A stretch of 64,000 nucleotides of DNA, from contig NZ_JAGGMM010000003.1 in assembly GCF_017875315.1 (NCBI RefSeq), forward strand, positions 434,001 to 498,000, given 5' to 3'. This DNA comes from Methanomicrobium sp. W14. GTDB lineage: Archaea; Halobacteriota; Methanomicrobia; Methanomicrobiales; Methanomicrobiaceae. Shown in pieces: positions 23,597-63,325 of this stretch. Positions within the stretch are counted from its first letter, which is position 1, and the number at the start of each line of letters is the position of its first letter. The notes beneath the pieces were generated by a model, which saw only the letters and a list, made by a program, of their open reading frames with translations, was not told the origin of the DNA and did not search any database. Made by a program: the position numbers and the translations under genes.

Positions 23597-23621
23597 AGTA
23601 ATACATATTTTAAATAATGTA

Positions 23622-40057: not shown

Positions 40058-41140
40058 TTACATCATACCGCAGACTTCATACGGGTTGTTCAGCGGATTT
40101 TGAAACTTTTTGAGCATATCCGAATCCACGTCAAACTCCTTCATGACAGTCACGTACTTCTCCGGGTTGTCAAGGTTTTCCACCATGTCAACAGTCTGGT
40201 ATATCTTCTGCCCCCATGAAGGCCCTGTCCACTCCGAAGAGTCGAAGTTGAACCCTACGGCAATGCCTTTTCCTGTCTTCTCTGTGTTGTTCCACAGGAC
40301 AAATATCCCGGCAGGACGTGTTCCGTAACTTTCAGTAAGGACTGCCTGGGAATCAGACGTAAAGTTAACAGATGTGCAGACACCTCCCTTTCCGGGCGTC
40401 ATATCCCATAAAGTCACGTAGACGTCCTCCTTGCACCACGTAGGGGAAGACACTACGACATATGAAGTGCCGTCGGTGAGAGGAAGCCTGTCCTGCACGA
40501 ACTCAGATATAATGTACCCGCTCGAAACACCGGGGCAGAAATGGTTGTGAAGAGACGCCGCATACATAAGGTCGTAAGGTGCCCCGTGCGCCCAGGCGTT
40601 TGCTATTGAAAGAATCGAAAATGCCTCTCCCCCGAGGGCTTTTTCAGTTTCATTGCCCTGGTTTGTGTCTGCAAGCATCAGGTTTATGTCACCGGTTACA
40701 GATGCAATCTTTGAAAACGCAGCGGTTGTCGCAACCTTGGCGGCATCGCTTTCGCTCATGTTGTAAAACGCGGTGTCAGGCTCAAGGTAGACACCTTTTC
40801 CTGTGCCCTTGTCATAGAAATAGAACCACAAGGGTTTCCATTCGGCACGGTTTATCTGGAAAAGATTGCCGTTTCCGTTCTGAAGACCACTCACCTTCGT
40901 AATTCCGGAAACCGCACCTTCAGTAGTCCGGCCGTCTATTACTACGCGTCCCGCATCAGTCAATGCCACAACATCCGGGTCATTGTAGGAAAATCCAAGC
41001 TTTTCCATTGCAATTAAAGCCGCACGCTGTCCAAGATCATTAAATCTGTCAGAACCGGACGATGATGCACCCATCACCGGAGCAAAGAGAAGGCACACCA
41101 GAAGTATGCCTGCCGCCAATTTCAGGTAATTAATTTTCAT
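40058..41140 (-). CDS. Secreted FmdE-domain protein
   Basis: 360 aa with a signal peptide (hydrophobic 7-24, MGASSS). The FmdE-like core lies in the second half: LHNHFCPGVSSGYI (H198, H200, C203 region), TWCKEDVYV and LWDMTPGKGG. The HxHxxCPG motif with a later cysteine is the metal-site pattern of FmdE proteins. The N-terminal ~180 aa (DAGRVVIDGRTT...) is shared only with the paralogue at 50852. Exported location rules out a role in cytoplasmic formylmethanofuran dehydrogenase and suggests capture of a metal or metallated cofactor outside the cell. Confidence 0.82.
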   Translation of the reverse strand: MKINYLKLAAGILLVCLLFAPVMGASSSGSDRFNDLGQRAALIAMEKLGFSYNDPDVVALTDAGRVVIDGRTTEGAVSGITKVSGLQNGNGNLFQINRAEWKPLWFYFYDKGTGKGVYLEPDTAFYNMSESDAAKVATTAAFSKIASVTGDINLMLADTNQGNETEKALGGEAFSILSIANAWAHGAPYDLMYAASLHNHFCPGVSSGYIISEFVQDRLPLTDGTSYVVVSSPTWCKEDVYVTLWDMTPGKGGVCTSVNFTSDSQAVLTESYGTRPAGIFVLWNNTEKTGKGIAVGFNFDSSEWTGPSWGQKIYQTVDMVENLDNPEKYVTVMKEFDVDSDMLKKFQNPLNNPYEVCGMM

Positions 41141-41155
41141 TTTATCTCCAAAACC

Positions 41156-41170: not shown

Positions 41171-41330
41171 GTATAATTTTTTTCAAACCAGAATAACACC
41201 GGTCAACAGAATTCCTGTCACCCGGATTTTTGATTTCCGGATTTCCACAATTTCAGATTATACTGTTTCCTGGTATGGAAAAAGTAGAGAAATCACAGAA
41301 TCCACAATCATTTTCTTAAGAAGTATAAAC

Positions 41331-41353
41331 ATAAAAGTATTACTAAATGAATC
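41331..41353 (-). repeat. Repeated upstream element, copy 1
   Basis: ATAAAAGTATTACTAAATGA plus ATC on the plus strand, matching the core of the element at 46569, 50640 and 52215. It lies 190 bp upstream of the secreted FmdE gene. The second block (TTATTAC, 14 nt away in two of the other copies and TTATTAT in the third) is not clear here. The surrounding 364-bp gap (41141-41504) contains no gene. Confidence 0.6.
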
Positions 41354-41504
41354 TATAATTCCCAACAATCATATTCTGCATAAAACAGAAATCTTTACAA
41401 AAAGCATCAAAATTAAACGGGTTTTAAAAAACAGGGTTTTAATGCAAAAATTGTTTTATTTTGGCTCAGACTGAAAAAAAAGTCATATTGACAGGTCTTT
41501 CTTG

Positions 41505-42296
41505 TTACCGTCCGGCCTTTACCGGAATCCTTTCAAGCGGGACTATATACAAAAAGTCGTCCGAACGCTTTACGTTTGCCTTTACCCCGTATACTTTTTC
41601 AATATTTTCAGAATTTATGACGCTTTCGGGGTCGCCTGCCGCAACAATCCTGCCCCTCTTCATCATGACAACGACGTCCGAATATTTTGCAGCCATATTC
41701 AGGTCATGTATAGCGATAATCGCCGTAAGCCTCTTCTTTTTGACAAGAGAGCGGATGACTTCCATTACGTCTATCTGGTGCCACAGGTCAAGATTGCTCG
41801 TGGGTTCGTCCAGGAGAATAAGACCTGTGTTCTGGACGAGTGCACGGGCGATAAGGACCTTCTGCTGCTGGCCTCCGGAAAGTTCCGTAAAAGACGACAT
41901 TGCAAGGTTTTCAATTCCAAGAAGCCTTAAAACACTCCATACCTCATCTTCGTCAGACACATCCTCACGCCACCCGAGATAGGGCCTTCTCCCCATAAGG
42001 ACTACGTCAAAAACACTGTTCGGAAAAGACCTTATCGAGTTCTGGGGGACGTAAGCTATGGTCTTTGCAATGTCCATCCTCCCCATTTTAAGAAGGTCCT
42101 GGCGGTCGACAAGCACCTTTCCCGCCTGCGGTTCAAGAATCCTGTCGATGCATTTGAGAAACGTCGATTTTCCCGAGCCGTTGGGACCAAGAAGGCTTAC
42201 GACCCTTCCGTCGGTCACGTTAAGAGAAATTCCGTTGAGAATATCTTCGCTGTCATAACTGAAGTGAAGGTTTTTGACAGAGAGTTTTATTATCAT
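41505..42296 (-). CDS. BtuD/FecE-type ABC importer ATPase
   Basis: 263 aa with Walker A GPNGSGKST, YVPQNSIRS, signature LSGGQQQKV, Walker B LILLDEPTSNLD and switch AIHDLN. It overlaps the permease stop by ATGA. This is the second importer of this type in the window. No binding protein adjoins it directly, but two lipoprotein binding proteins lie a few kb upstream on the same strand. Confidence 0.94.
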   Translation of the reverse strand: MIIKLSVKNLHFSYDSEDILNGISLNVTDGRVVSLLGPNGSGKSTFLKCIDRILEPQAGKVLVDRQDLLKMGRMDIAKTIAYVPQNSIRSFPNSVFDVVLMGRRPYLGWREDVSDEDEVWSVLRLLGIENLAMSSFTELSGGQQQKVLIARALVQNTGLILLDEPTSNLDLWHQIDVMEVIRSLVKKKRLTAIIAIHDLNMAAKYSDVVVMMKRGRIVAAGDPESVINSENIEKVYGVKANVKRSDDFLYIVPLERIPVKAGR

Positions 42297-43423
42297 GTCC
42301 AGTACTCCTTTTTTCTTCCGCGGAGGATTAGATACAGGAAGAACGGAACTCCGATTATCGACATCGTAACACCTGTCGGAATTATTATCGGCGATAACAG
42401 GTGCACAGAGACTGCATCCGCTATGAGAAGTATCAGCGCCCCCAGACCTCCTGCAGCGGGGATCATGTACCTGTGGTCAGAGCCAAGGATCATACGCCCC
42501 ATGTGAGGCGCTACAAGGCCTATAAATCCCAGGACCCCGATAAACGCCACAATAACCGCGACATAAAGGCTTGAGACCACCATGATGTAAATGCGTGTAA
42601 AACCTGCATCAACACCCATACTTTTTGCACTTTCGTCTCCTGCCGTCATAAGGTTCAGGTCCCAGGCTTTCATGTACAGGAGAGGCAGGCAAATTATGGT
42701 TACGCCGGCAAGAATACCTATACTGTTCCAGTTTAAGTCGGACAGTCCTCCCATTCCCCACATGTTCATGACCTCCTGCTGCTCTTCGCTTGCTACAAAG
42801 CTGAAAAGCTGGTTCAATGCCTGAAATAAATAATTTACTGCAATTCCTGCGAGGACAAGCATCTCGGAAGTAGCCCCCTTAAGTCCCGAAAGGCAGATTA
42901 TGACCGCAGAACACACGAGTGCACATACAAAAGCGTTACCTATGAGAAAATAAGGCCCGCCAAGAAACGTTATCCCAAATACGGCTGCAACCGACACCCC
43001 GAACTGTGCACCTGAGGATATTCCGAGTGTAAACGGACTTGCAAGAGGGTTTTTGAGAACGGCCTGCATTACGCAGCCGCATATGCCGAGACCGAGACCT
43101 ACAATAATGTCACCTGCAACCCGCGGAAGGCGTATTTCCCAGACAGTATTTTCCATGGCTTTTGTGACCTCACAAAAGCCCGGCACAACCCTGTCTATTA
43201 TTATGGAATAGACTTCAGTCACCGTTATCGGCATCGGGCCTATCGTTATGATAAAACCCGAGGCAATGACTATAATCAGCACCACAGCGAGAAGAAAGAG
43301 AAGCTTCTTCCATACCGACAACGAGTGTTCTTTTTCTACTTCACTTACCTTTCCGGTCCTGGTCCGTCCTGTAGCAGGAACCTTTCTCGGGACAGGACTA
43401 CGCCTCATCCTGTATTCCCTCAC
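42293..43423 (-). CDS. FecCD/BtuC-type ABC importer permease
   Basis: 376 aa. A long basic N-terminal stretch (about 35 aa) is followed by ten or so membrane helices with IRLPRVAGDIIVGLGLGICG, QAVLKNPLASPFTLGISSG and GVLGFIGLVAPHMGRMI. The first codon is GTG, overlapping the slipin stop as GTGA; ATG at 43408 is an alternative start. The coupling with a slipin gene is unusual for this family. Confidence 0.92.
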   Translation of the reverse strand: MREYRMRRSPVPRKVPATGRTRTGKVSEVEKEHSLSVWKKLLFLLAVVLIIVIASGFIITIGPMPITVTEVYSIIIDRVVPGFCEVTKAMENTVWEIRLPRVAGDIIVGLGLGICGCVMQAVLKNPLASPFTLGISSGAQFGVSVAAVFGITFLGGPYFLIGNAFVCALVCSAVIICLSGLKGATSEMLVLAGIAVNYLFQALNQLFSFVASEEQQEVMNMWGMGGLSDLNWNSIGILAGVTIICLPLLYMKAWDLNLMTAGDESAKSMGVDAGFTRIYIMVVSSLYVAVIVAFIGVLGFIGLVAPHMGRMILGSDHRYMIPAAGGLGALILLIADAVSVHLLSPIIIPTGVTMSIIGVPFFLYLILRGRKKEYWT

Positions 43424-44187
43424 CGCTCCATCGCCTTTGTGCAGCCGACAGTGGTTGCAATGCTATCTGCATTCCCGACACCGGAAGTGACTACAATAAG
43501 GTTTCTCTCCTTTGCTATCTCGGTCAGTGTCTGGAACTCGCGAAGCTTCATTGCAGAAGGTGTTTTGTCATAGAGACCTGCTGCCTCGCACATACGCTCA
43601 GACGCCTGATATTCACCTTCAGCAAGGATTATGCGTGCTCTTTTCTCTCTTTCTGCCTCAGCCTGACGTGCGATTGCACGCAGCATATTTTCAGGAACAG
43701 ATACGTCGCGGATTGTTACGATATCCACTTTAATTCCCCAGGGGCTTGTCACGTTCTCGATTTCGGTGTGTATCTCACGGTTTAAAGAGTCCCTGTCAGA
43801 AAGAATCGTATCAAGTTCGTTCTGGCCGAGGATGTCACGAAGCGTCGTCTGGGCAATGAGTGCCGTTGCAGCCTCGTAGTCCTCAACCTCCACTATCGCC
43901 TGGCACGCATCTGTTACATGGTAATAGATTATGGCGTCGACGTCGACACTTATGTTGTCCTTTGTTATTATCGTCTGCTTCGGAACGTCAAGCTGCCTTA
44001 CTCGGAGGTCTACCCTTACAATCCTGTCGGTCGGAAAAAAGACAGGGAATATTCCGGGGCCTCTCTGGCCGACAAGCTTTCCTAACCTGAATATTACGGC
44101 ACGCTCATACTGGCGTGTCACCTTTACGGACAGGAACACTACGACAATTATCACCAGAATCAGCAGTACAGCCTCAAAAATATCCAC
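43420..44187 (-). CDS. Slipin (stomatin/prohibitin-like, SPFH domain)
   Basis: 255 aa. One N-terminal membrane helix (5-20), then the SPFH/band 7 domain: YERAVIFRLGKLVGQRGPG, DRIVRVDLRVRQLDVPKQ, SVDVDAIIYYHV, and a coiled-coil-prone region KRARIILAEGEYQASERM. GTG start at 44187 preceded by GGAGGTGTC. Slipins scaffold membrane complexes and are usually paired with an NfeD protease-like gene; none is present. Here it overlaps the permease gene instead (GTGA), which implies a role linked to that importer. Confidence 0.92.
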   Translation of the reverse strand: MDIFEAVLLILVIIVVVFLSVKVTRQYERAVIFRLGKLVGQRGPGIFPVFFPTDRIVRVDLRVRQLDVPKQTIITKDNISVDVDAIIYYHVTDACQAIVEVEDYEAATALIAQTTLRDILGQNELDTILSDRDSLNREIHTEIENVTSPWGIKVDIVTIRDVSVPENMLRAIARQAEAEREKRARIILAEGEYQASERMCEAAGLYDKTPSAMKLREFQTLTEIAKERNLIVVTSGVGNADSIATTVGCTKAMER

Positions 44188-44481
44188 TTAAAGACACCTC
44201 CACCCTGCGGATATTACACTGGCAAAAATAGTATTATACAATAATTTAAAGTTCATTCATATTATGTAAAATATTAATAATTTTAACACTTTTGATTTGC
44301 TATTTTGTATAACAAGGCTACAGACAGGTATCCGGCCAAAACAGATTTAACCGTTTTTCAGGATCTAATCAATTAAAAAAACATAGATTACAGATTTTTA
44401 GAAAAGGTGTAAAAGAAAAAAAGAGAAACAATAAAAAATGATAATATCACACAATTTCTTCGCGAAAATGCATTTAACAGA

Positions 44482-45369
44482 CTAAATGACTCTCCACACC
44501 ATCATCCCGTGGCACCCGCGTGAAGGTGCTTTGTACATCCCGTTAACGGAGACTTCCCTGTAATATGAAAAGATTTTTTCTTTTGCACTCTCGTCAGGCT
44601 CATGGTCCCGCGAAAGGTGCATTATAGCAGCTTCAGCCGCTTTTTCAAAAGGCATCTCAACGTTTCTTCCGAAACCGTCTATTTTTACTACGGGCTCAAT
44701 ACCCGAGAAGTAGAGGTGCATCAGGGGAAAAAACATGTTGTACGCATGATGAATTTTGGCAGTCCTGTCGTTTTCCCGAATCCCCCCAAATACGGTCATG
44801 CAGATTTTCCTGAAGTCCTCATCGTCAGCAAAACTGAGAAAGCTTGAGTAATAGCACATGTTTTTTGAGCATGCAATCATCTTTTCAAAGCTTTTGGTGT
44901 CATTTACAGAGGCCGTCCTTGACGCTATCACAAGGTCAAAATTCCTTCTGAATCCCAGTTTGTCGATATCGGCCGTCCACCACGAGCATTCCGTCGTATC
45001 TACAGACAGACCCTCTTTCTCTGCGGTCTCTTTTATCTTTTCAAGAGAAGTAGCGGAGATATCAAGTGCAGTTACAGCTGCACCCTCCCTTGCAAGCGGC
45101 AGTGAAAGAGCGCCCATTCCGCAGCCTATATCAAGTACTGACGAGCCTTTGATGCAGAAACCGTTTTCCTTCAGAAACTGTACCGTTTCTTCGGCACTTT
45201 TCTTCAGAATTTTATCGTCACCGTGACTTTTTTCGGAATTTTTGGAACGCTTATCCCATATTTTGTTCCACATCACGGCTGTTTTGGTCTCGTCATCGTC
45301 ATCATGAACCTCTGTGGTGGTCTCCTCCCACAGCCTGCTCCAGCTGTCCAGGTTGTCCTCCTGCGTCAT
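44482..45369 (-). CDS. SAM-dependent methyltransferase, CYYS family, member 1
   Basis: 295 aa. Motif I VLDIGCGMGALSLPLA, acidic ALDISATSLEK, SWWTADIDKLGFRRNFDLVI, then the family signature ACSKNMCYYSSF, FPLMHLYFSGIEP and C-terminal HGMMVWRV. Core SAM-binding residues are intact. It overlaps the next upstream methyltransferase by ATGA, so two paralogues are translated in tandem. The N-terminal CW motif of the other members is replaced by WSRLWEE. Substrate unknown. Confidence 0.9.
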   Translation of the reverse strand: MTQEDNLDSWSRLWEETTTEVHDDDDETKTAVMWNKIWDKRSKNSEKSHGDDKILKKSAEETVQFLKENGFCIKGSSVLDIGCGMGALSLPLAREGAAVTALDISATSLEKIKETAEKEGLSVDTTECSWWTADIDKLGFRRNFDLVIASRTASVNDTKSFEKMIACSKNMCYYSSFLSFADDEDFRKICMTVFGGIRENDRTAKIHHAYNMFFPLMHLYFSGIEPVVKIDGFGRNVEMPFEKAAEAAIMHLSRDHEPDESAKEKIFSYYREVSVNGMYKAPSRGCHGMMVWRVI

Positions 45370-46262
45370 GCCTTCCTCCCGTTCACGTTCCAGACCATCA
45401 TCCCGGTATATGTAACCGATTTCGGGCCGTAAAGACCGTCTTCGGACGCGTTTCTGAAGTAGTTTCTTATTATGTCCTTTTCAGCGTCTCCAAGCTTTTC
45501 GTCGCGGTCCATCATTTCTATCGTCATATCGGCCGCTTCGGTCCAGCTGCGCTTCATCATATGCCTGGATGAAAGAATCCTCACATCCGGCCTGAAGCCG
45601 GCAAGGTAAAGGTACATAAACGGATAAATCAGACCGTTTCCGTGGCCGTGAGGGACGCCGTGCTTGTCTTTCGCCTCAAACCCTTTTTCTTCGAGAAGCT
45701 TTCCTATCTCCTCGCGTGCAGGGTCTTTTCCCGTACTGACGAAATTGCTGTAGTAGCAGAGTCCGTCTGAGCAGTCAATCATCTTTTCAAAACTTTCGAT
45801 GCCGTTTATCCCCGGGGTCATTGACGCGATAACAAGGTCGAAACTCTTCCGAAAGCCCAGTTCGTCTATATCGGCAGTCCACCAGGAAAGCTCCCTTGCA
45901 TCTATAGAGAGCTTCTCATCCTCAGCGGTTTTTTTAAGCCTGTCAAGCATCCCGGACGCTATATCAACGGCCGTAACACTGGCCCCCTTCTTTGCCAGCG
46001 GTATGGACAGAGTTCCCGGACCGCATCCTATATCAAGGACTTTTGCACCTTTTGGGTTAAATCCTGCGTTTTCAAGAAGCCTGAAAATTTCTTCCGTCCT
46101 TTTGTTCCCGGAGTCGTCTTTGTCTCCTCTTCCCTTCCCGAAAGTTGCAGAGCGTTTGTTCCACATCTCGGCAGTGCGGTTTTCATCAAACAGACCATGC
46201 ATCTGTTTTGAATTCTTTTTCCAGCATTCAGTCCAGTTATCAAGATTTTCATTGTTGCACAT
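45366..46262 (-). CDS. SAM-dependent methyltransferase, CYYS family, member 2
   Basis: 298 aa. N-terminus NLDNWTECWKKN, motif I VLDIGCGPGTLSIPLA, SWWTADIDELGFRKSFDLVI, DCSDGLCYYSNF, YPFMYLYLAGFRPD and C-terminal TGMMVWNV. GAGGAG precedes the ATG. First gene of a two-methyltransferase unit whose leader carries copy 2 of the repeated upstream element. Confidence 0.9.
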   Translation of the reverse strand: MCNNENLDNWTECWKKNSKQMHGLFDENRTAEMWNKRSATFGKGRGDKDDSGNKRTEEIFRLLENAGFNPKGAKVLDIGCGPGTLSIPLAKKGASVTAVDIASGMLDRLKKTAEDEKLSIDARELSWWTADIDELGFRKSFDLVIASMTPGINGIESFEKMIDCSDGLCYYSNFVSTGKDPAREEIGKLLEEKGFEAKDKHGVPHGHGNGLIYPFMYLYLAGFRPDVRILSSRHMMKRSWTEAADMTIEMMDRDEKLGDAEKDIIRNYFRNASEDGLYGPKSVTYTGMMVWNVNGRKA

Positions 46263-46838
46263 TCGGATTCTCCTCTAAAATTATGAGCCGGAATATACGG
46301 ATTCCCTTTTTTAGGACCTGCATTTTCAGGCCTTATGCACTTTGTTTATTATGAATACCAAAAAATTCAGGCCAAAAACCTCTTTTCTGATTTTTACGGG
46401 AATATCTGATATAACCCTTTAAATCTGACTTTCAGAACGCCCATGGCAAAATCGCCATAACTTAGAGATACAGGAATTCACGCTACCTGCCGTAGGGTTT
46501 TTTTGCAGGAGACAAGAGGTCTATCGTAATATCCGACGCCGTACAGGAGGTACATTATTACGTTGGCCATTAAAAGTATTACTAAATGAATCTTCAGGTT
46601 TTTTTAGTTATATAATCAGCCAGGCGGACATTTTTTGCATATCCCAAAATTTGTGTAAAAAGATAACCGAAAAAAAGACTTTTCTGTAAATGGTAAAAGG
46701 TTAATTAATTACATTCGGTTAATTGCTAAGGCTCACCTTTGTGCTGGCTTTTCAAAACACCTTTAAAAAGACATTTAGATAATATTTTTTAGAGATTAAA
46801 TATTAACAATTAAACAAAATGTTTGCCGGTTTTTTGCT
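46263..46838. other. 576-bp divergent intergenic region with a long leader
   Basis: No gene seen. It holds copy 2 of the upstream element (46555-46592). On the minus strand, a small hairpin TATGGC-GATTTT-GCCATG (46442-46458) lies between the element and the methyltransferase start, and GGCCTGAAAATGCAGG (about 46317-46332) can fold back on itself. The right part should hold the promoter of the rightward thioredoxin-CcdA gene. Confidence 0.5.
46555..46592 (-). repeat. Repeated upstream element, copy 2
   Basis: Plus strand: TTATTAC at 46555-46561, then 7 nt, then ATTAAAAGTATTACTAAATG plus AATC (46569-46592), followed by TTCA. About 293 bp upstream of the methyltransferase pair. The two blocks keep the same 14-nt offset as in copies 3 and 4. 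Confidence 0.7.
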
Positions 46839-48038
46839 GTGACCACCAGAAATATGATATCCAAAGTTCTTCTTGCAGTATTCGTTTTATCCGCTGCCGT
46901 GTTCCAGGTGTACGCCGGCGACAGCCTGAAAGGGCAGGACTGCCTTAAAAATGATGACAACTTCACGTTTTCAAACACATCTGTGTACTTCTTCTACGGC
47001 AGCCACTGCAGTGCATGCCATAGGACAATGCCGGTTATAAAAGAGGCCGCAGAGAAATACCCGGATTTAACCGTTTATTACTATGACGTTGAGCTGTCTG
47101 ACGAGAACCTTACGATTTTCTATGACTTCGCCGATAAATACGGTCTTTCGTACCCGGGCTATCCGATAATTTATACAGGCGACACAGTAGCGCTTGAAGG
47201 CTATAGCGAAATAAATTCGAACATCACCGAAGTCTTTGAAGGACTGAAAGAGGGACTGATACCTGACCTTTCATATGAGAAGAGATGGAAAAAAGAGCCT
47301 GAAGACAATTCCACGGGATACGCTTTACCGGATGAAAAAAACGGAGAAAACGGCCATTACCTTGACGCAGGCCTTGTATGCCTTGCAGGTCTTCTCGACG
47401 GAATCAACCCCTGTGCATTTGCGGTTCTGATATTCCTCCTTATTTCCCTGAACAAGGCCGGTTCAAAGAAGTTTGTGATTTTAACGGGCTTTTCATACAT
47501 TGCCGGAGTCTACATCATATATATTCTTGCAGGACTTGGAATAATGAGTGCAGTTTCGGTGTCGGGATTTGCAGGTCCTTTTTCGGTAGCTGCGGGGCTG
47601 ATTGCGGTGGTTGCGGGAATTATCAGTTTATACGAGGGCATATCCGAAAAAGCGGCGGTTTCTTTAAGGGTTCCTGAATTTACAAAGGGAATAATTGCGG
47701 AAAGGGCTAAAAAGGCGACTGTTCCCGGAGCTTTTGTTCTCGGGATTCTTGCGGGAGGCTTTGAGCTTCCGTGCACCGGAGGGATATATCTTGCGGTCCT
47801 TGGCCTTTTGTCTTCCTCCGTTGCTTTTGGAAGGGGATTTTTGTACCTTGTACTCTATAACCTGATGTTTGTCCTTCCGCTTGCGGCAATTGTCCTTCTT
47901 GTATCATTCGGGACGACTTCCCTTGCCGCAGATCTGTTCAGGAAGAAAAACAGGAGAGTTTTAAGGTTCATTATGGGTGCAGTGCTTCTTTTAATCGGCT
48001 TTTTTGCGTTTTTTGAGGGACTGACTCCCTACATGTGA
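46839..48038 (+). CDS. Thioredoxin-like domain fused to a CcdA-type membrane domain
   Basis: 399 aa. Signal peptide/anchor, then an extracytoplasmic thioredoxin-fold domain (about 45-145) with active-site SHCSACH (C57-x-x-C60), then a six-helix CcdA/DsbD-beta domain with the paired cysteines in GINPCAF (C192) and ELPCTGG (C312). Such proteins carry electrons from cytoplasmic thioredoxin across the membrane to reduce extracytoplasmic disulfides. Here the CcdA and thioredoxin parts are in one chain. Start is GTG 46839 or ATG 46854. In this neighbourhood it could keep secreted Cys-containing metal-binding proteins reduced (inference). Confidence 0.87.
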   Translation: MTTRNMISKVLLAVFVLSAAVFQVYAGDSLKGQDCLKNDDNFTFSNTSVYFFYGSHCSACHRTMPVIKEAAEKYPDLTVYYYDVELSDENLTIFYDFADKYGLSYPGYPIIYTGDTVALEGYSEINSNITEVFEGLKEGLIPDLSYEKRWKKEPEDNSTGYALPDEKNGENGHYLDAGLVCLAGLLDGINPCAFAVLIFLLISLNKAGSKKFVILTGFSYIAGVYIIYILAGLGIMSAVSVSGFAGPFSVAAGLIAVVAGIISLYEGISEKAAVSLRVPEFTKGIIAERAKKATVPGAFVLGILAGGFELPCTGGIYLAVLGLLSSSVAFGRGFLYLVLYNLMFVLPLAAIVLLVSFGTTSLAADLFRKKNRRVLRFIMGAVLLLIGFFAFFEGLTPYM

Positions 48039-48201
48039 ATTTTTCGGCCTGCTCTTTTTGCATAAACCTTCTAAATTCCAAACGCCTGAAGAAATCCCGC
48101 CTTCTCAGGAAGAAAAACAGTATAAAAAATATTATTTGAACTGTCCCTATGAACTTCAGAAAGGCCGTTTTTTAGTTTTTACCGGACCAAAGATCAAAAA
48201 T

Positions 48202-49383
48202 TTATTTGAGGGAAACCTTCTCAAATCCCTGGTTGTTGCAGATAGTATTCAACCTGTCAAAGACAGGTTCGCCAACGAACTCTGTGAATATCTCATTGGC
48301 CTTCTCTTCAGGGTCGACATCCGAGAACCTTTCGGGATAAACGGTCTTTCCTATGAAATACGCGTCCGCAATGACTGTAGCATAGTTGGTCGCACGATAG
48401 TTGTACGGAAGGGTCGCGTATACGTCACCGTTTTGCACTGCCTTCATATCAGAAAAGGCTGCACTTTTTATATCCTGAAAACCCCCTATTTCGTCCTCAA
48501 CGCCAAGGGTCCCGGCATCTATGAATATATAATCGGGATCGGCATATAACAGGGATTCCTTTGAAAACTCGGTACTGTACATGTCCGTAATATTAGCAAT
48601 ATTCTCCACATTGCACCACGATAAAGGAACATACTGCGAACTCGTCGACATAAGTCCGTGTGCTCCTCCAAAAGAGAGCCCTCCTATATAGGCGGTTTTT
48701 CTTTCGGATTCGGAAAGATTTGCGGTTCTTTCCTGCAGGTCGTCTTTGCAGGACTTAATGTATGAAATTAATTCTTCGGCACGGTCCTCTTTTGAAAGGG
48801 CCTCTCCAAGAACCCTCAGCCCTGAAAACATCTCCTCAAGCCCTTCATCGTCCCTGAATGACCCCGGAGAAAATGCCACTACGGGAATATTGGTCTTTTG
48901 CTGCATGATATCCGCTGAAGATGTCGTCTGGCCGGACTCATTCATGACAGAATTCCCGGCCATAAATATGACCTGAGGGTTTAACAGCATCACCTGTTCG
49001 AGATTTGTACCGTCACCTCTGGTACTGATTACGGGCAGGTCTGAAAACCGGGGGTTTACGAGAGTATACGGCCTGCTGGTCTCGGTTTCGTCTTCCCCGC
49101 TTTCTATTCCGATAATTTTGTCCGAGGAGTCAAGATATGTGATGTACCTTGTACACGTTCCGCCGGATGAACACACTATGGTGTCAAGTTCGGAGGGGAT
49201 GATAACTTCCCGCCCGTAGCTGTCGTTTATTGAAACCGAGGAGTTCACATCCCCACTGTAGCTGTACCCGCCTCCTGCCGCTGTACACCCGGAGGTTGCA
49301 ACAGTGGCTGCAAGAATAACTGATGTTGCCAGCAGGATAAGACCTGTCTTAAAAAAAGTCAGAGTATTCTCAAATCCGGTCAT
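48202..49383 (-). CDS. Lipoprotein-like ABC importer substrate-binding protein (BtuF/FecB type)
   Basis: 393 aa. Signal with a lipobox-like ATSGC, a Gly/Ser-rich spacer, then SINDSYGREVIIPSELDTIV, LEQVMLLNPQVIFMAG, YADPDYIFIDAGTL and FIGKTVYPERF. GGAAGGGG precedes the ATG. It follows a CYYS-family methyltransferase by 60 nt on the same strand. No permease adjoins; the BtuCD-like pair at 41.5-43.4 kb is the nearest candidate partner. Confidence 0.9.
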   Translation of the reverse strand: MTGFENTLTFFKTGLILLATSVILAATVATSGCTAAGGGYSYSGDVNSSVSINDSYGREVIIPSELDTIVCSSGGTCTRYITYLDSSDKIIGIESGEDETETSRPYTLVNPRFSDLPVISTRGDGTNLEQVMLLNPQVIFMAGNSVMNESGQTTSSADIMQQKTNIPVVAFSPGSFRDDEGLEEMFSGLRVLGEALSKEDRAEELISYIKSCKDDLQERTANLSESERKTAYIGGLSFGGAHGLMSTSSQYVPLSWCNVENIANITDMYSTEFSKESLLYADPDYIFIDAGTLGVEDEIGGFQDIKSAAFSDMKAVQNGDVYATLPYNYRATNYATVIADAYFIGKTVYPERFSDVDPEEKANEIFTEFVGEPVFDRLNTICNNQGFEKVSLK

Positions 49384-49443
49384 AAAAAGCCCCTTCCTCT
49401 GAATTTATTTTCCGGGCATGGTTTTCCGGTACAAGATTTCTCT

Positions 49444-50346
49444 TCATACCTTCCACACCATCATACCGGTGTACATACCCTGCTTTGGCGGGCAGATTCC
49501 GTCTTTGGCCGAATTTCTGAAATAATCATTTATTTTGCCTTTTGCCGCATCATCAAGGGTGTGCTCACGACTTAAGCGCTCTATAGTACGAAGAGCCGCG
49601 TCCTCCCATTTTATCCCTTCTTTATGCCCGAAAGAGTTTATCTTTACAGACGGCCTGTACCCCGACAGGTAGAGGTACATGAACGGGTAATACAGACCGT
49701 TTCCGGGATGAAAACGGTGCGAGGGCATTTTTTTATTTTCTTCCTCCGGTTTTGGCTGCTGCTGGATTAAACTCTGTATGAGACTGTGAAACCCATCCTC
49801 TTCGGGTCTGCCCCCTCCGGCGAAGTTGCTGTAATAGCACAGATTTTTGGAGCATGCCATCATTTTTTCAAAGCTTTCGAGACCGTTGACAGCAGGTGTC
49901 ATCGATGCAATTACAAGGTCGAAATTCTTCCGGAAACCGAGTTCGTCGATATCCGCACTCCACCATGAAAGCTCTCTTGAGTCTATCAAAAGATTTTCTT
50001 CTTCCGCCTCCTGCCTGAGCCTCTGAAGCATCCCGGATGCGATATCGACCGCCGTAACACTGGCACCCGCCTTTGCAAGAGGTATGGAAAGGGGCCCAGG
50101 ACCGCAGCCTACGTCAAGGACTTTTGCACCTTCAGGGTTAAATCCCGCATCCTTAAGGAAACCGAATATCCCATCAGTCCTTTCACGGTGTCTTTCGGAT
50201 TCGTCTCCCATATGGTCCCTGCCGTAATTTTCCGACATTTTGTTCCACCTCTCAGCCGTGCGGTTTTCATTGAAAAGACCCTGCATACCTTTTGAATTGT
50301 CCTTCCAGCACTCCACCCATTTTTCCAGGTTGTCGTTATTATCCAT
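49444..50346 (-). CDS. SAM-dependent methyltransferase, CYYS family, member 3
   Basis: 300 aa. NLEKWVECWKDN, motif I VLDVGCGPGPLSIPLA, SWWSADIDELGFRKNFDLVI, ACSKNLCYYSNF, YPFMYLYLSGYRPSVKI, TGMMVWKV at the extreme C-terminus. GGGAGGT precedes the ATG. Followed by a binding-protein gene on the same strand, so it is the first gene of a methyltransferase-binding protein pair. Confidence 0.92.
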   Translation of the reverse strand: MDNNDNLEKWVECWKDNSKGMQGLFNENRTAERWNKMSENYGRDHMGDESERHRERTDGIFGFLKDAGFNPEGAKVLDVGCGPGPLSIPLAKAGASVTAVDIASGMLQRLRQEAEEENLLIDSRELSWWSADIDELGFRKNFDLVIASMTPAVNGLESFEKMMACSKNLCYYSNFAGGGRPEEDGFHSLIQSLIQQQPKPEEENKKMPSHRFHPGNGLYYPFMYLYLSGYRPSVKINSFGHKEGIKWEDAALRTIERLSREHTLDDAAKGKINDYFRNSAKDGICPPKQGMYTGMMVWKV

Positions 50347-50482
50347 TCAAAACCTCCCAAGAAATCCAAAGTTAAAATACGCCTGTTTTATCCTTTTCAG
50401 GCCCTGCAGATTTTTCCTGTTCAGGCAGACATTCATACCATAAAGTGCTGCCCGGATGTTTCCTGACATTTACAATTGCGCC

Positions 50483-50501
50483 TTTACCGGCTGCCGGTAA
50501 A
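50483..50501. promoter_or_regulatory. Perfect 9-bp dyad upstream of a methyltransferase gene
   Basis: TTTACCGGC-T-GCCGGTAAA. A single-base spacer is too short for an RNA loop, so a dimeric protein-binding site is more likely than a hairpin. Lies 137 nt before the ATG at 50346. A different perfect dyad lies at nearly the same distance before the FmdE gene at 51937. Confidence 0.45.
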
Positions 50502-50625
50502 CGTCAGAAAAAGACCTCAAACCTGTTGAATGCATGGTTTTAAGAACCGAAGCATGCCTTTATCAGGCATTCTCTGCAGGGCACGGGGAAACGGTCATAT
50601 TTTTTAATGTTTAACAGGAGATCTA

Positions 50626-50663
50626 TTATTACTTTGATTATTAAAAGTATTATTAAATGAATT
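50626..50663 (-). repeat. Repeated upstream element, copy 3
   Basis: TTATTAC at 50626-50632, 7 nt, then ATTAAAAGTATTATTAAATG plus AATT (50640-50663), followed by TTCA. About 280 bp upstream of the methyltransferase at 49444-50346. Confidence 0.7.
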
Positions 50664-50851
50664 TTCATCCAATATTTATAATATTTTATATCCGGCAGTT
50701 CATCCGAATGCTCAAAACGGTCACACCAAAATGTATAGCTGATGAAGAGATCTCCACTTTTAAATGGCAAATACCGTAATAAAACCAGAGACAGTCATAA
50801 TAATCTGCGTCAGGCTTTTCGGGGGTTTGCAATATATAGTAAAAAAGGTGT

Positions 50852-51937
50852 TTAAATCATCCCTATGACTTCATAAGGGTTGTTTTCAGGGTCTTTGAGT
50901 TCGGAAAGCCGGCTGCCATTGACCTTAAACTCATAGATGGTGGTGTAGAGGCTGTCGAGGTCGTCAAGGTCCTTTACTTTTTCAACAGAACCGTAGATTT
51001 TTGAACCCCATGAAGGCCCCTCGTAGGGCGGCGATGTCGACGGAAGAGAAGCTATAACTATCCCGTCACCGTAATTTTCCCCGCTGTTCCACCTGACAAA
51101 GACTCCTGCCGGGCTTGTGCCGTATTTAGCTTTAAAAGCCTCCTGCGAGTCTTCTGTGAACCCTTCTGACACTACTGCAAGGTTCTTTTTTCCGGGAGTC
51201 AGGTCCCACATTACAGGGAATGCGTCAAGCTTGCATGAAGCCGATGTAAATACAGCCGTATATGAATCCGACTCTTCGGCAGGGAGTTTCTCCTCAACAT
51301 ATTTTGCAGGGACGTAGCCTCCGAGGACACCGGGGCATAAGTGGTTGTGAAGTGATGCGACAGTCATCAGGTCATACGGTGCACCGTATGCCCATGAGTT
51401 TGACAGGGAAAGAAGCGAAAACGCATTGCTCCCGAGAGCCTCTTCCGTTGCATTGCCGTCGTCAGTGTCCGCGAGCATCATGTAGATGTCGCCTGTGACA
51501 AGGTCTGCGGTCGAAAAAGTGTCATCTAAAGGCAGGTCCATTATCTGTCCCTTCGTCATCGTGTAATAGTCGTCACCGGGGACCAGATAAAGCCCCTTTC
51601 CAGTATCTTTGTTGTAGAAATAAATCCAGAGCGCCTTCCAGTCTCCGCGGTTTATCGAATACATATCCGCATCCCCGTTTGAAAGCCCGGATACGTTCGT
51701 TATGCCTGAAAGCACCTTATTTGTAGGATTTCCGTCTACAACCGCCCTTCCGGCGTTTGTCAGTACAAGAACGTCAGGGTCACCGTAGCCGAAATCAAGT
51801 TCGTCCATAGCAAGGATTGCGGCACGCTCTCCGAGCTGCTCCAATACATAATCATCCGTGGCATCGGCCATCGCCGGCATTATAAGCAGGCATAAAAGCA
51901 CTACACCTGAAATAAGTTTTAAATAACCAGTCCTCAT
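50852..51937 (-). CDS. Secreted FmdE-domain protein, paralogue of 40058-41140
   Basis: 361 aa. Signal peptide (MPAMADATD), then the same two-part plan as its paralogue: N-terminal NAGRAVVDGNPTNKVLSGIT and C-terminal FmdE-like LHNHLCPGVLGGYV with a later SASCKLDAF and MWDLTPGKKN. The metal-site HxHxxCPG is retained. GGAGGAAAA directly precedes the ATG. Single gene with a long leader containing element copy 4. Confidence 0.82.
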   Translation of the reverse strand: MRTGYLKLISGVVLLCLLIMPAMADATDDYVLEQLGERAAILAMDELDFGYGDPDVLVLTNAGRAVVDGNPTNKVLSGITNVSGLSNGDADMYSINRGDWKALWIYFYNKDTGKGLYLVPGDDYYTMTKGQIMDLPLDDTFSTADLVTGDIYMMLADTDDGNATEEALGSNAFSLLSLSNSWAYGAPYDLMTVASLHNHLCPGVLGGYVPAKYVEEKLPAEESDSYTAVFTSASCKLDAFPVMWDLTPGKKNLAVVSEGFTEDSQEAFKAKYGTSPAGVFVRWNSGENYGDGIVIASLPSTSPPYEGPSWGSKIYGSVEKVKDLDDLDSLYTTIYEFKVNGSRLSELKDPENNPYEVIGMI

Positions 51938-52070
51938 TTTTCCTCCGTTTAATCATCAGAACAGACATCTTCATGAAAAAAGTGCTTCCCTTCCTGAAAA
52001 TCACATAAATCCGTAATAATTTTCCAAATCCATCACGCGGGCAATGAGTTCACGAATTACCAACCAGTTG

Positions 52071-52090
52071 TTAATGGACCTGTCCATTAA
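52071..52090. promoter_or_regulatory. Perfect 9-bp dyad upstream of the secreted FmdE gene
   Basis: TTAATGGAC-CT-GTCCATTAA, 134 nt before the ATG at 51937. Candidate operator for a dimeric regulator; sequence differs from the dyad at 50483. Confidence 0.45.
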
Positions 52091-52200
52091 ACTGCGAATG
52101 AATTCAGGACTAATTTACGGATTCTGCTGGTTCACTGACATTCGGCGGAAAGCGGCTTTTGAAGAAAAATCATATTCGCAACAATAAACCAAACCAATAA

Positions 52201-52238
52201 TTATTATGTTTACTATTAAAAGTATTACTAAATTGATT
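52201..52238 (-). repeat. Repeated upstream element, copy 4
   Basis: TTATTAT at 52201-52207, 7 nt, then ATTAAAAGTATTACTAAATT plus GATT (52215-52238). About 264 bp upstream of the secreted FmdE gene. Spacing between blocks equals that in copies 2 and 3. Confidence 0.7.
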
Positions 52239-54480: not shown

Positions 54481-54496
54481 GGTTCTTATCCTGTTA

Positions 54497-57492: not shown

Positions 57493-57926
57493 AAAATACC
57501 AGACCTTCCAAAATGTGAATTCTGATAACAATGTTGAATTAATTATGTATAGAGTAATACATAATTTAATTTTATTATTAAAAATCACTTAAGTTTAAAT
57601 TTTATGATTTGATTTTATTATACATAACAGTTAATTTATTGTTAACACAAGCAGAAATTTTTGATATTTCAGCAGATAACAGAAATTGCAAAAGATTACA
57701 CAGAGATCTACTTTACAGGGCGAATGGAATATATAATTATTATATGATCTTAGGAATACAAATTTATTTTAGTTAGGTTAGAAAAAATAACCAACCTGGC
57801 TTTCCAGACCTGATCGAAGCTGTTTACACAGGGTGATCCCAGAAACGGCATTTTTCAGATGAAATATCCGCAAAAATAAAAAAATAATCAGAATTTTTCA
57901 AAAAAAATGGTTATTCAGTCTTTAAA
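57493..57926. other. 434-bp AT-rich intergenic stretch
   Basis: Carries the promoter of the pilin array. GTAATAC at 57554-57560 echoes the core of the repeated element but without its flanks. No gene seen between the array and the CooC gene. Confidence 0.4.
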
Positions 57927-58826: not shown

Positions 58827-60542
58827 TCAGTGCGAATGGCAGCATAAACCCATTCTTGACCCTACAAGTTTTTTTGTGTATTCGTTTCCGGGGGAAAGCA
58901 TAATGTCATGGGCGTTTCCCGCCTCGACAATCTTTCCTGACTTCATTACAGCAATCCTGTCTGCAATCTTTAAGGTAAGAGCAAGGTCGTGCGAGATGTA
59001 GATCATCGCAAAACCACGCCTGTTCTGGAGTCCCTTCAAAAGTCTCATTACGTTTGCAGAAGTCGAAACGTCAAGTGCCGATGTTATCTCGTCTGCAATC
59101 AGAAGCTTCGGCCTCATGACCATCGCACGTGCAAGGGCAACCCTCTGCCTCTGGCCCCCGGAAAGCTCGCCGCAGTATTTTTTCACAAAGAAATCGTCAG
59201 AAGGAAGCCTTACAAGTGAAAGGGCTTCTGAGACCATTTTTACCCTGTCCGCAGAAGACCCGATTTTATTTATGTCAAGAGGCTCTTTTACGGCGTCAAG
59301 GACGGTAAACCTGCTGCTTGTGGCGCTGAAAGGGTCCTGGAAAACTATCTGGACACCGTCAAAACAGGAACCGCACCCACCTGGCAGAAGGGGCTTTCCC
59401 CGAAACTTAACGCTGCCTGAAAACGGCTTTTCCACTCCCGCAAGCATATGGGCCAGGGTAGACTTCCCGCTGCCCGTCTGCCCGACGACAGCAAAGACCT
59501 CACCCTCCTTCACATCAACGGAGACACCGCCGACTGCCAAAAGCTCCTTTTTGCCAGGCAGAGAGTATTTGAATTCAAGGTTTTCAGCCTCAAGGAGAGT
59601 GATGATTCCGCCCCTGTGGCACGCTATCATGCGGCCTTTTCCGCATTCGCAGAGTTCAGGCTTTGACAACCCGCATTCCTTTGTCTTCTGGGTGCAGCGT
59701 GGCGAAAACGGGCAGCCCGAAGACTCCGTGCCATACAAAGAGTCTCCCGGAATCCCCCACAGGTCCTTGTAGATGAATATGTCAGGAGTCGAGTTCACAA
59801 GCCCCCTCGTATAAGGATGACAGGGAGAGACTATCACCTCACGTGCAGGCCCGCTCTCGACGACTCTTCCGGCGTACATAACGGCAATGTCTGATGCAAC
59901 AGACGACACAAAAGTGATGTCATGCGATATGACAATCATTGTGTAGCTGAATTCGTTCTTAAGCTTCATCAGAAGGTCGCGTATTTCCTTTCTTGCAAAC
60001 GCATCAAGAGCCGATGTCACCTCGTCAAGGATAAGAAGCTTCGGCCTGCAGGAAATGGCCATTGCGAGAAGCACCCTCTGCCTCATTCCTCCCGAAAGCT
60101 GGTGCGGGTATGAGTTCATCCACGATGGTTCAAGTCCGACGGCCTCAAACAGGGATGCACACCTGTATTCAGCCTCATCACGGGAAATTTGAAGGTGTTT
60201 TATCATCGGCTCAATAACCTGCGGCCCTGTTTTCATGACAGGATTTAATATCTCAAGTGCGTTCTGGAAGACCATTGCAATCTCTTTCCAGCGGAACCTG
60301 TCCATTTCAGGTTCGGAAATACCTGAAATCATACTGCCTTCATACAGTATTTCACCCGAAACCTCAGTATTTTCGGGAAGAAGCCCCATAATCCCAAGTG
60401 CAAGCGTGGTCTTTCCGCTTCCGGATTCACCGACGATTCCAAGGACATCACCCTCTTTTAACTCCAGGGATACACCGTCAACAGCCTTTACGGAACTATC
60501 TCCTGCCATGTACGTGCACTCAAGGCCTTTAACCGAAAGCAT
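58827..60542 (-). CDS. Nickel/peptide-type ABC importer, two fused ATPase domains (NikDE/OppDF-like)
   Basis: 571 aa with two complete ABC domains. First half: Walker A GESGSGKTT, LSGGMRQRV, LLILDEVTSALD and the Opp-type C-terminal cysteine region CPFSPRCTQKTKECGLSKPE (typical 4Fe-4S- or zinc-like Cys cluster of OppD/NikD proteins). Second half: Walker A GQTGSGKST, LSGGQRQRV, LLIADEITSALD. In most genomes these are two genes; here they form one chain. Starts 3 nt after the permease stop. Confidence 0.93.
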   Translation of the reverse strand: MLSVKGLECTYMAGDSSVKAVDGVSLELKEGDVLGIVGESGSGKTTLALGIMGLLPENTEVSGEILYEGSMISGISEPEMDRFRWKEIAMVFQNALEILNPVMKTGPQVIEPMIKHLQISRDEAEYRCASLFEAVGLEPSWMNSYPHQLSGGMRQRVLLAMAISCRPKLLILDEVTSALDAFARKEIRDLLMKLKNEFSYTMIVISHDITFVSSVASDIAVMYAGRVVESGPAREVIVSPCHPYTRGLVNSTPDIFIYKDLWGIPGDSLYGTESSGCPFSPRCTQKTKECGLSKPELCECGKGRMIACHRGGIITLLEAENLEFKYSLPGKKELLAVGGVSVDVKEGEVFAVVGQTGSGKSTLAHMLAGVEKPFSGSVKFRGKPLLPGGCGSCFDGVQIVFQDPFSATSSRFTVLDAVKEPLDINKIGSSADRVKMVSEALSLVRLPSDDFFVKKYCGELSGGQRQRVALARAMVMRPKLLIADEITSALDVSTSANVMRLLKGLQNRRGFAMIYISHDLALTLKIADRIAVMKSGKIVEAGNAHDIMLSPGNEYTKKLVGSRMGLCCHSH

Positions 60543-60545
60543 AAA

Positions 60546-61481
60546 TCAGCTCTTCCCCCCTGTTTTTCTCAACAGCTTCGGGTCAAGGACACGCTCCATA
60601 TCCCTGCTTATGAAGGCAAGGCATAAAAGAAGAAATATCAGCATGAAAAGGGGCGGAAGAAGCCACCACTGCCAGTACGGAGTAAAATATATCGAACGAA
60701 AACTCGTCGCGTAATTTATCATCATCCCCCAGCTCTTCGAGGTGGGGTCACCAAGTCCCAGAAAAGCAAGTCCTGTCTCGGCAACTATAGCATGCGAGGA
60801 TATTCCTATGATAAGCACCAGAAGAATCGGGAGGACTTCAGGGAATATGTGTTTTCTCAGCAGGTAAAACGGTTTTGCACCGAACATCCTCGCGGACACT
60901 ATGTAGCTGTTCTTTTTTATCGACAGAGTCTGAGAACGTGCCAGGCGTGCAGGTTTCGCCCAGCTGAAAAGGACAAGTATTATTATAACGTTCACGATGC
61001 TCGGGCCCAGAAACGCCGAGATTACAATCAGAAGCGGAAGACTCGGAAGGGCCATCGTGACATCGATTACCCTCATCAGGACTTCGTCGAAGATTCCCCC
61101 GCGGTAGCCTGCCAGAATTCCAAGGGCACCGCCGCCGAAACCTGCGATAAAAGCTACAGCAAGACCTATCGTAAGGCTCATCCTTGCACCGTAGCACACC
61201 TGCGACCATATATCCATCCCGAGTTCGTCGGTCCCGAGGACATGCCCCGGGTCAGGCGATTCAAGGGAATCACCCGTTATTTTGTCAGGCGGGTACACTG
61301 TTATAAGTGGTGCGAATACTGCCATCATAACAATTAAAAAAAGTCCTGCAACACCAATTTTGCCCTCTATGCTGAACTTTGAAAATGTACTTTTAAAGCT
61401 TTTAACAAGTTCATTCACATTTTCACGGGATACTTTCAGGATACGGCCAGGCTCCTGCAGTGAAGCTTTAAAACCGTTCAT
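60546..61481 (-). CDS. Nickel/peptide-type ABC importer permease (NikC/DppC-like)
   Basis: 311 aa, about six membrane helices. VLGTDELGMDIWSQVCYGAR near the N-terminus and the EAA-type loop KPARLARSQTLSIKKNSYI are diagnostic of the DppC/NikC family. ATGA overlap with the NikB-like gene. Confidence 0.92.
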   Translation of the reverse strand: MNGFKASLQEPGRILKVSRENVNELVKSFKSTFSKFSIEGKIGVAGLFLIVMMAVFAPLITVYPPDKITGDSLESPDPGHVLGTDELGMDIWSQVCYGARMSLTIGLAVAFIAGFGGGALGILAGYRGGIFDEVLMRVIDVTMALPSLPLLIVISAFLGPSIVNVIIILVLFSWAKPARLARSQTLSIKKNSYIVSARMFGAKPFYLLRKHIFPEVLPILLVLIIGISSHAIVAETGLAFLGLGDPTSKSWGMMINYATSFRSIYFTPYWQWWLLPPLFMLIFLLLCLAFISRDMERVLDPKLLRKTGGKS

Positions 61482-62461
61482 ACCGACACCCTCGGGTCAA
61501 GCTTTCCGTAGATTCTGTCGACAGTCAGGTTGCAGGCAAGTATCGCTATTGCAAGGACAAGCAGAATCCCCTGTATAAGAGGGTAGTCACGACCTACAAC
61601 AGCCGTCCTTAAAGTCATCCCAATTCCGGGATAGCTGAAAACGCTTTCGACAAGGACTGCGCCTCCCATCATGATTCCTATCATGAAGCCCGTCCTCGTA
61701 ACGACAGGAAGAAGGGCGTTTCTTAAGGCATGCCTCTTCCAGACGTTCTTCTCTCCTATTCCCTTTCCGCGTGCCGTTCTTATGTAGTCCTTCGTCATGA
61801 CCGTTATCAGGGTGTTTCTTGTGAGAAGGTACACACCTGTAAGCTGTGCAAGCGACAGAGCAACTACAGGCAGAAACGCGTGATACAAAACGTCTCCCGC
61901 AAAATAGAATACGTTTGGATAGTCTGCAAACGGCGTTACGGCGCCTGCAAGCGGGAATAGTCCAAGATAGGCCCCGAATATCAAAAGAAGGATAAGCCCC
62001 AGGAGAAATGACGGGATTTCCGCAAAAGCAATCATTCCTGTCATCATAAGCCTGTCGCTCTTTTTCTTCCTGTTTTTTGCTGAAATCATCCCCAGAAAGA
62101 CACCAAAGACCGTACTGAGAGCCGTTGACAACAGGACAATTAATATCGTCCACGGCAAATGGATTCTTATTACGTCGATTACAGGCATTTTGTAGTATAT
62201 GCTCTTACCCAGATTCCCTGATGCCAGGTTTCTGAGGTATATTGCAAACTGCTCGTAGATTGGTCTGTCCATCCCATAATAGCTGATATAATACTCCCTC
62301 TGCTCCTCTGTCATCACGATTACGTCCTCTCCTGCCTCATCTGAAGAAGTCGTCGAAAAAGGGTCTCCCGGCATCATCCTGGGAAGAAAAAAATTTATGG
62401 CAAGGATTACAAGGACAGTCAGAAAAAGCCTGAATATAAACGAACTCCTGCCATCCTTCAT
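61478..62461 (-). CDS. Nickel/peptide-type ABC importer permease (NikB/DppB-like)
   Basis: 327 aa. N-terminal helix, FLPRMMPGDPF (family FxRxxPGDP), YGMDRPIYEQFAIYLRNLAS, six helices and the EAA-loop KDYIRTARGKGIGEKNVW. Begins 9 nt after the methyltransferase gene's stop, so the methyltransferase is embedded in the importer operon. Confidence 0.92.
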   Translation of the reverse strand: MKDGRSSFIFRLFLTVLVILAINFFLPRMMPGDPFSTTSSDEAGEDVIVMTEEQREYYISYYGMDRPIYEQFAIYLRNLASGNLGKSIYYKMPVIDVIRIHLPWTILIVLLSTALSTVFGVFLGMISAKNRKKKSDRLMMTGMIAFAEIPSFLLGLILLLIFGAYLGLFPLAGAVTPFADYPNVFYFAGDVLYHAFLPVVALSLAQLTGVYLLTRNTLITVMTKDYIRTARGKGIGEKNVWKRHALRNALLPVVTRTGFMIGIMMGGAVLVESVFSYPGIGMTLRTAVVGRDYPLIQGILLVLAIAILACNLTVDRIYGKLDPRVSV

Positions 62462-62470
62462 AAAAAACCT

Positions 62471-63325
62471 TCAGAAGTCCTTTACCTTCCAGGTCATCAT
62501 CCCGGTATAGACGTCAGTTTCGGAGCGGTATATACCGTCAGGCGAAGCCTTTTTGTAGCATTCTCGAATGACATTCAGGGTGTCTTCGTCACACTCGCGG
62601 CTGCGGCCGACAAATTCTGCGGTCTTTCTGCCGGCTTCCTCCCACGGCGACTCCTCCTTCCATACGGAATGGCTTATCCTTACTTCCGGGTGATAACCCA
62701 GAAGATAAAGGTACATAAACGGGTACATCATCCCGTTCGCGTAACCGGCCGGGTTCTCCCTTCCCGTAAGCATAAATATCTCGTTTTGGACAGGGTCTCC
62801 GCCCCTTTTAAGGAAATTGCTGTAGTAGCACATGCCCTTTGAGCACGCCATCATCTTTTTAAAGCTGTCAAAATCCTTTACTCCCGGAGTCATAGAGGCA
62901 AGCACAAGGTCAAATCCGTCCCGAAAGCCGAGGCTGTCAATGTCGGCAGTCCACCACGAGCATTCGGCGATGTCTATTGCAAGGGACTCTTTTTTTACTG
63001 TTTCTTTGAGCTTTTCAAGCATTCCCGAGGAAATGTCGACCGCCGTAACCTTCGCACCCGTCTTTGCGAGAGGAATTGCAAGAGTTCCAGGCCCGCACCC
63101 TATGTCTAAAACCTTCTTTCCCTCCGGGGAAAATCCGGATGATTCAAGAAAAGAAAGAATTTCATCAGTCTTCTTTCCTCTCCAGGCATCCCTCATGCCG
63201 GCGGCAAACTCACCTGACCTCTTGTCCCAGAAGCAGGCGGTCTTTTTTTCGTCGTAAAAGCCTGTATTCACTACACTCTGCGTCCAGCAGTCCGTAATGA
63301 ATTTTATGTTATCGTTCTGCTGCAA
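62471..63325 (-). CDS. SAM-dependent methyltransferase, CYYS family, member 5
   Basis: 284 aa. NIKFITDCWTQS, motif I VLDIGCGPGTLAIPLA, SWWTADIDSLGFRDGFDLVL, ACSKGMCYYSNF, YPFMYLYLLGYHPEVRI and C-terminal TGMMTWKV. The start codon is TTG at 63325 with GAGGGAAGG just before it, inside the last codons of the binding-protein gene (17-nt overlap). It lies between the binding protein and the permeases of one importer, the strongest case in the window for a functional link. Confidence 0.9.
   Translation of the reverse strand: MQQNDNIKFITDCWTQSVVNTGFYDEKKTACFWDKRSGEFAAGMRDAWRGKKTDEILSFLESSGFSPEGKKVLDIGCGPGTLAIPLAKTGAKVTAVDISSGMLEKLKETVKKESLAIDIAECSWWTADIDSLGFRDGFDLVLASMTPGVKDFDSFKKMMACSKGMCYYSNFLKRGGDPVQNEIFMLTGRENPAGYANGMMYPFMYLYLLGYHPEVRISHSVWKEESPWEEAGRKTAEFVGRSRECDEDTLNVIRECYKKASPDGIYRSETDVYTGMMTWKVKDF

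Follow-up and report, generated by a model that had tools for sequence, protein, structure and literature searches.

A conserved split dyad upstream of metal-related operons in Methanomicrobium sp. W14, a predicted operator of the nickel-responsive repressor NikR

Introduction

The formation of methane depends on nickel enzymes, and the way in which methanogens sense and collect nickel is little understood. Binding sites of the regulator NikR have been described in several prokaryotes. The E. coli NikR operator is GTATGA-N16-TCATAC (PMC7055735). In delta-proteobacteria, the predicted NikR signal GTGTTAC-N13/14-GTAACAC, 27-28 bp long, is located upstream of nikMNQO, and a natural variant of it (GTaTTAC-N13-GTAACAC) precedes a hydrogenase operon; in one species the orientation of the signal is flipped (PMC545781). 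The NikR protein of H. pylori recognizes the AT-rich pentamers TRTTA and TAWTA, 15 nt apart (20 nt from centre to centre), both of which are read by one tetramer (PMC5385501). As for methanogens, the available account of the work of Rodionov (2006) reports predicted NikR sites in eight genomes, treated together with nikMNQO-type transporters (PMC10617489).

In this work we analyzed a repeated element in a stretch of 64,000 nt of the genome of Methanomicrobium sp. W14 (hereafter "the window"; contig NZ_JAGGMM010000003.1, positions 434,001 to 498,000). Plain coordinates refer to the window, those preceded by C3 to the contig that carries it and those preceded by C2 to another contig. On the minus strand, that is, in the direction of transcription, the element reads as ATTTA-GTAATAC-N14-GTAAYAM, in which the dyad GTAATAC-N14-GTAAYAM measures 28 bp overall, the centres of its half-sites being separated by 21 bp. 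It shares with the delta-proteobacterial signals the two 7-bp half-sites of similar sequence (including GTaTTAC) and the 28-bp layout; however, it is archaeal, its 14-nt spacer is TATA-like, GTAATAC is preferred to GTGTTAC, and the half-sites can often be read in tandem rather than being strictly inverted. Like the E. coli operator, it is a 28-bp dyad embracing two helical turns in a nickel-transport promoter, but the half-site is GTAATA instead of GTATGA. AT-rich half-sites two turns apart and a high number of targets are also found in H. pylori, whereas the target genes are different and the H. pylori promoters are bacterial. The likeness to the methanogen sites of Rodionov (2006) concerns the association of NikR with nikMNQO-type transporters, and is drawn from the description of those sites in PMC10617489. 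The kind of site is already known and the members of the regulon are new: as far as the literature searched shows, and leaving aside the motif and gene list of Rodionov (2006), the novelty lies in a well-defined dyad for this methanogen group and in its extension to operons for secreted FmdE proteins and methyltransferases.

Results

The bipartite 33-nt pattern TTATTAY-N7-ATTAAAAGTATTAYTAAAT has three exact matches in the window (46555, 50626 and 52201), and its second block is seen again at 41333; the fixed spacing and all four positions agree with a preliminary description of this DNA, which had assigned to the same bipartite pattern a length of 38 nt, the nucleotides beyond the 33 of the printed element being a less conserved GAATC tail. 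The pattern had no match in 100 dinucleotide shuffles of the window. With at most one mismatch, the core 16-mer AAAAGTATTAYTAAAT occurs in only five places of the 2.54-Mb genome, all of them on a single strand and within 24 kb (C3:475333-499189), versus one match of the reversed control pattern; a whole-genome pattern search allowing two mismatches was not discriminating (42 matches vs 52 in the control).

All the copies of the window lie on the minus strand. Copy 1 (41316..41353) consists of the dyad GTAATACTTTTATGTTTATACTTCTTAA, whose second half-site is degenerate, and of the conserved 5' flank GATTCATTTA, and is located about 175 bp upstream of the gene coding for the first secreted FmdE-domain protein (40058..41140, minus strand; PF02663). 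Copy 2 (46555..46592), GTAATAC-N14-GTAATAA, was matched without mismatches in the latter search and precedes a methyltransferase operon, in which the SAM-dependent methyltransferase gene at 45366..46262 (minus strand) is followed by a paralogue at 44482-45369. Copy 3 (50626..50663), ATAATAC-N14-GTAATAA, lies upstream of an operon with a paralogous SAM-dependent methyltransferase (49444..50346, minus strand) and, downstream of it, a periplasmic binding protein (Peripla_BP_2; 48202..49383, minus strand). Copy 4 (52201..52238), GTAATAC-N14-ATAATAA, again matched without mismatches in that search, is upstream of the second FmdE gene (50852..51937, minus strand), the product of which is 48% identical to the first one. 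The fifth copy falls 1.2 kb beyond the end of the window (dyad at C3:499157-499184, window coordinate 65157; core match at window coordinate 65174, C3:499174 in the contig numbering). It precedes a leftward gene for a NikA-like protein, which spans the border of the window, and NikBC/DE-like genes follow that gene; the part of this cluster lying in the window (58827..63776, minus strand) embeds the peptide/nickel ABC transporter genes and a methyltransferase gene (62471-63325), together with the sequence for the C-terminal portion of the NikA-like protein. Thus, copies 2-5 carry GTAATAC-N14-GTAAYAM with minor deviations and copy 1 has a weak second half-site; the spacing of 21 bp between GTAATA-like half-sites, initially noticed on the minus strand of one copy, holds in all of them.

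In the window operons, leaders of 175-290 nt separate site and gene. A scan of positions 40000-55000 against Rfam, at E values up to 5, gave no relevant RNA family match (cobalamin or NiCo riboswitch), and a riboswitch or another known RNA in the leaders was accordingly rejected. The comparison of the flanks revealed dissimilar sequences around the copies, except downstream of the two methyltransferase copies 2 and 3 (z = 3.7); therefore, apart from this pair, most copies are not merely recent duplications, and a recent duplication of segments was discarded.

The surroundings of the copies deserve some observations of their own. Five paralogous SAM methyltransferases sharing the motif SWW(S/T)ADID are scattered among the metal-transport operons between 44482 and 63325, and no NCBIfam model exceeded its cut-off for the two of them that were tested. 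Moreover, archaeal type IV pilin-like gene clusters (54550-57588 and 27146-28614) are interspersed in this metal island.

A weight matrix (PWM) trained exclusively on the nikM sites of other genomes was used to scan 104 kb around the window. Its six best distinct places were position 23598 (score 30.3) and the five copies of the element, namely copies 5 (20.5), 4 (19.6), 2 (19.5), 3 (19.0) and 1 (16.3). In random sequences generated by a second-order model, scores of 17-23 were reached in 5 of 20 runs, so that a lone match such as that at 23598 is not a proof; six matches in one stretch, five of which coincide with the element of the preliminary description, are hard to get by chance. A sequence-only covariance model detected, in this genome, the site at 23598, copy 5, the nikM site, copy 3 and the site of the CobN operon; copies 1, 2 and 4 were not found at E <=10, probably because their spacers are less similar to the nikM ones.

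The predicted extra site GTAATACATATTTTAAATAATGTATTAA (23598..23625, plus strand), which is also the best genome match of the covariance model (E 0.009), is flanked by an ABC permease gene and by the gene for a ZnuA-like binding protein, and adjoins the start codon; at the ZnuA-like orthologues of the relatives its conservation is weak. Two weaker candidates were found in the window. At 29379..29427 (plus strand; PWM 9.9 and 12.5, E 7.6), three possible tandem half-sites about 21 bp apart precede an ABC transporter/CobN/chelatase operon starting at 29515, and weak sites occur in similar positions before this CobN-like operon in several relatives. The other candidate (57554..57581, minus strand; PWM 14.2) lies ahead of a cluster of archaeal type IV pilin genes (Pilin_N).

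Regarding the relatives, a species of another genus has three exact copies of the 16-mer in a single contig, two preceding FmdE orthologues and the third a NikA-like gene. Two species congeneric with Methanomicrobium sp. W14 carry the 16-mer, with one mismatch, upstream of an FmdE gene and of a NikA-like gene. All the FmdE orthologues of the same family having a complete upstream region carry the dyad. Two relatives also brought to light a further, unexpected location, ahead of nikM/cbiM, which codes for the membrane component of a nickel/cobalt transporter of the ECF type, to which NCBIfam gives the name "cobalt transporter CbiM". The search for nikM across 40 genomes led us to read 30 loci, and in nearly all of them, that of the window genome included, the dyad lies 41-49 bp before the nikM/cbiM start codon. 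When the upstream regions were scored, 19 of the 30 loci reached at least 12 of 14, versus 0.8% of the shuffled regions. In the nikM sites, dyad positions 8-13 read wTATAT, a TATA-like sequence lying some 35 bp ahead of the start codon.

The preliminary description had also indicated what would speak against a regulon, that is, a crowd of unrelated matches or a lack of conservation in the relatives. Neither was seen: in a scan of 149 genomes of the group, the reversed control had 2 matches and the strict dyad 31, mostly at nikM/cbiM. Thirty of these loci were inspected, and 25 show the dyad 43-48 bp before nikM/cbiM; the other five correspond to a NikA-like gene, an FmdE gene, the methyltransferase of the window, a methyltransferase-FecCD unit of another family and one locus without a clear gene. 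Another match of the same scan is upstream of frhA. Overall, the dyad of the relatives also precedes FmdE, NikA-like, frhA, mcrB and methyltransferase-FecCD genes; the idea of four operons forming one regulon is thus retained as to the regulon and exceeded as to its size.

Some of these loci are worth describing singly. Strong NikR-like dyads are located upstream of frhA, coding for the F420-reducing [NiFe] hydrogenase, in relative G006 (L184:1758-1785) and upstream of mcrB, belonging to methyl-CoM reductase, the F430 enzyme, in relative G034 (L188:1557-1584). In G129, a member of a different family, an exact dyad (L246, position 1500) is found ahead of two genes, the first methyltransferase-like and the next coding for a FecCD-like permease; this locus repeats the pairing of methyltransferase and metal transporter observed in the window. 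Within the genus, three species carry a dyad ahead of an operon that contains T2SSE/T2SSF secretion genes together with type IV pilin-like genes and is divergent from the NikA-like gene (L032:1407-1434; L200:12777-12804 in G003; L185:16171-16198 in G004). With the PWM, this site scores 16.2 in this genome and is strong (23.5 and 23.2) in two species of the genus; its position suggests that pilus-like filaments might be regulated by nickel. A strong dyad about 420 bp before an archaeal type IV pilin-like gene was also observed in relatives G001 and G005.

The genome harbors one NikR gene, on another contig (C2:134212), whose product exceeds the curated cut-offs of NF002169 and NF003381 and aligns with the NikR proteins of solved structure, the closest being that of Pyrococcus horikoshii. 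His76, His87, His89 and Cys95 are the nickel ligands of E. coli NikR, and the alignment shows that these positions are conserved. NikR is encoded in all 40 relatives searched, so that relatives lacking it could not serve as a negative control. The nikR gene is unlinked to these operons and no matching dyad was found upstream of it; hence, autoregulation of nikR was rejected.

Discussion

The comparative evidence supports the earlier proposal that the element is a protein-binding site and a shared promoter in a metal-responsive regulon and, between the NikR- and DtxR-like regulators then named as candidates, it favors the NikR encoded elsewhere in the genome. We consider it very probable that each copy is an operator of the nickel-responsive repressor NikR superimposed on the core promoter of an operon for nickel acquisition. 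The half-sites are about two helical turns apart in a dyad of 27-28 bp, as in the NikR operators. Their sequence is close to that of the delta-proteobacterial signals and differs from GTATGA of E. coli, the same genome codes for a NikR retaining the nickel-ligand positions, and the dyad precedes, with conservation in the relatives, genes for nickel transport or nickel enzymes (nikM/cbiM, NikA-like, frhA and mcrB).

As for the mechanism, a single NikR tetramer would dock with its two ribbon-helix-helix domains on the GTAATAC-like half-sites, whose separation of 21 bp corresponds to two helical turns. The AT-rich sequence that separates the half-sites, TTTTAAT here and TTATAT upstream of nikM, would represent the TATA box. 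Since a tetramer sitting on both half-sites would cover the box, Ni-NikR most likely blocks the binding of TBP/TFB when nickel, the presumed effector, is plentiful; when nickel is scarce, NikR would leave and the operons would fire. Some data count against this reading: the leaders are long for an archaeal promoter, nikR is devoid of a site and unlinked, the ECF protein bears the CbiM name, and the second half-site of copy 1 is poor.

Different explanations might be put forward. The operator might belong to the NikR family and be read by a homologue responding mainly to cobalt or zinc, which would delineate a cobalt/corrinoid or a zinc regulon. The NCBIfam name, the position of the top-scoring site at a ZnuA-like gene and the suggestion that zinc may be the signal for a NikR homologue encoded next to znuABC in Methanothermobacter (PMC3087415) agree with this idea, which we nevertheless regard as unlikely, given that the NikA-like, frhA and mcrB targets and the conserved nickel ligands point to nickel and that high levels of NikR1 and of a CobN homologue are attained by Methanothermobacter marburgensis only under nickel limitation (PMC12350162). 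The latter response also fits the weak sites before the CobN-like operon. Still less probable, in our opinion, is the control of the nickel genes by some other metal regulator, either of the DtxR type or an unrelated ribbon-helix-helix protein, because half-sites and geometry resemble the published NikR signals and NikR is universal in the group. DtxR-type operators are usually compact palindromes, and a 28-bp split dyad differs from that form.

A strong shared core promoter (BRE/TATA) acting without any regulator would account for the TATA-like spacer and for its almost constant distance from the start codon of nikM; however, a promoter of general use would be expected at many genes instead of matching in five places genome-wide, and a second half-site two turns away is conserved, which makes this scenario quite improbable. 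Lastly, the copies might be functionless remnants of a recent segmental duplication, as the occurrence of the genes in paralogous pairs and the somewhat similar downstream flanks of copies 2 and 3 could suggest. We attribute hardly any probability to this, since the remaining flanks are unrelated and the presence of exact copies before orthologues in another genus contradicts it.

If the copies are NikR operators, a question concerns the function of the genes that they precede. A protein of the FmdE family is known to have held both zinc and nickel, bound at a site of the form His-x-His-x-Cys, and most FmdE-family genes adjoin metal transporters (PMC2954224); both FmdE proteins of the window retain the motif HNH[FL]CPG (HNHFCPG in the first and HNHLCPG in the second). 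We may tentatively imagine, although we would not bet on it, that nickel starvation sets off a scavenging programme under one NikR switch, which might include secreted FmdE proteins binding nickel, methyltransferases building or modifying a nickel carrier that FecCD-type transporters would import, a CobN-like chelatase and type IV pilin-like filaments.

The conservation of the operator across a methanogen order opens the way to a direct test of the function of archaeal NikR. In some relatives the operator extends to the operons of F420 hydrogenase and methyl-CoM reductase, and, through these frhA and mcrB dyads, core enzymes of methanogenesis would there be subject to the same control. Furthermore, secreted FmdE proteins and orphan methyltransferases, until now without a role, would be assigned to metal supply.
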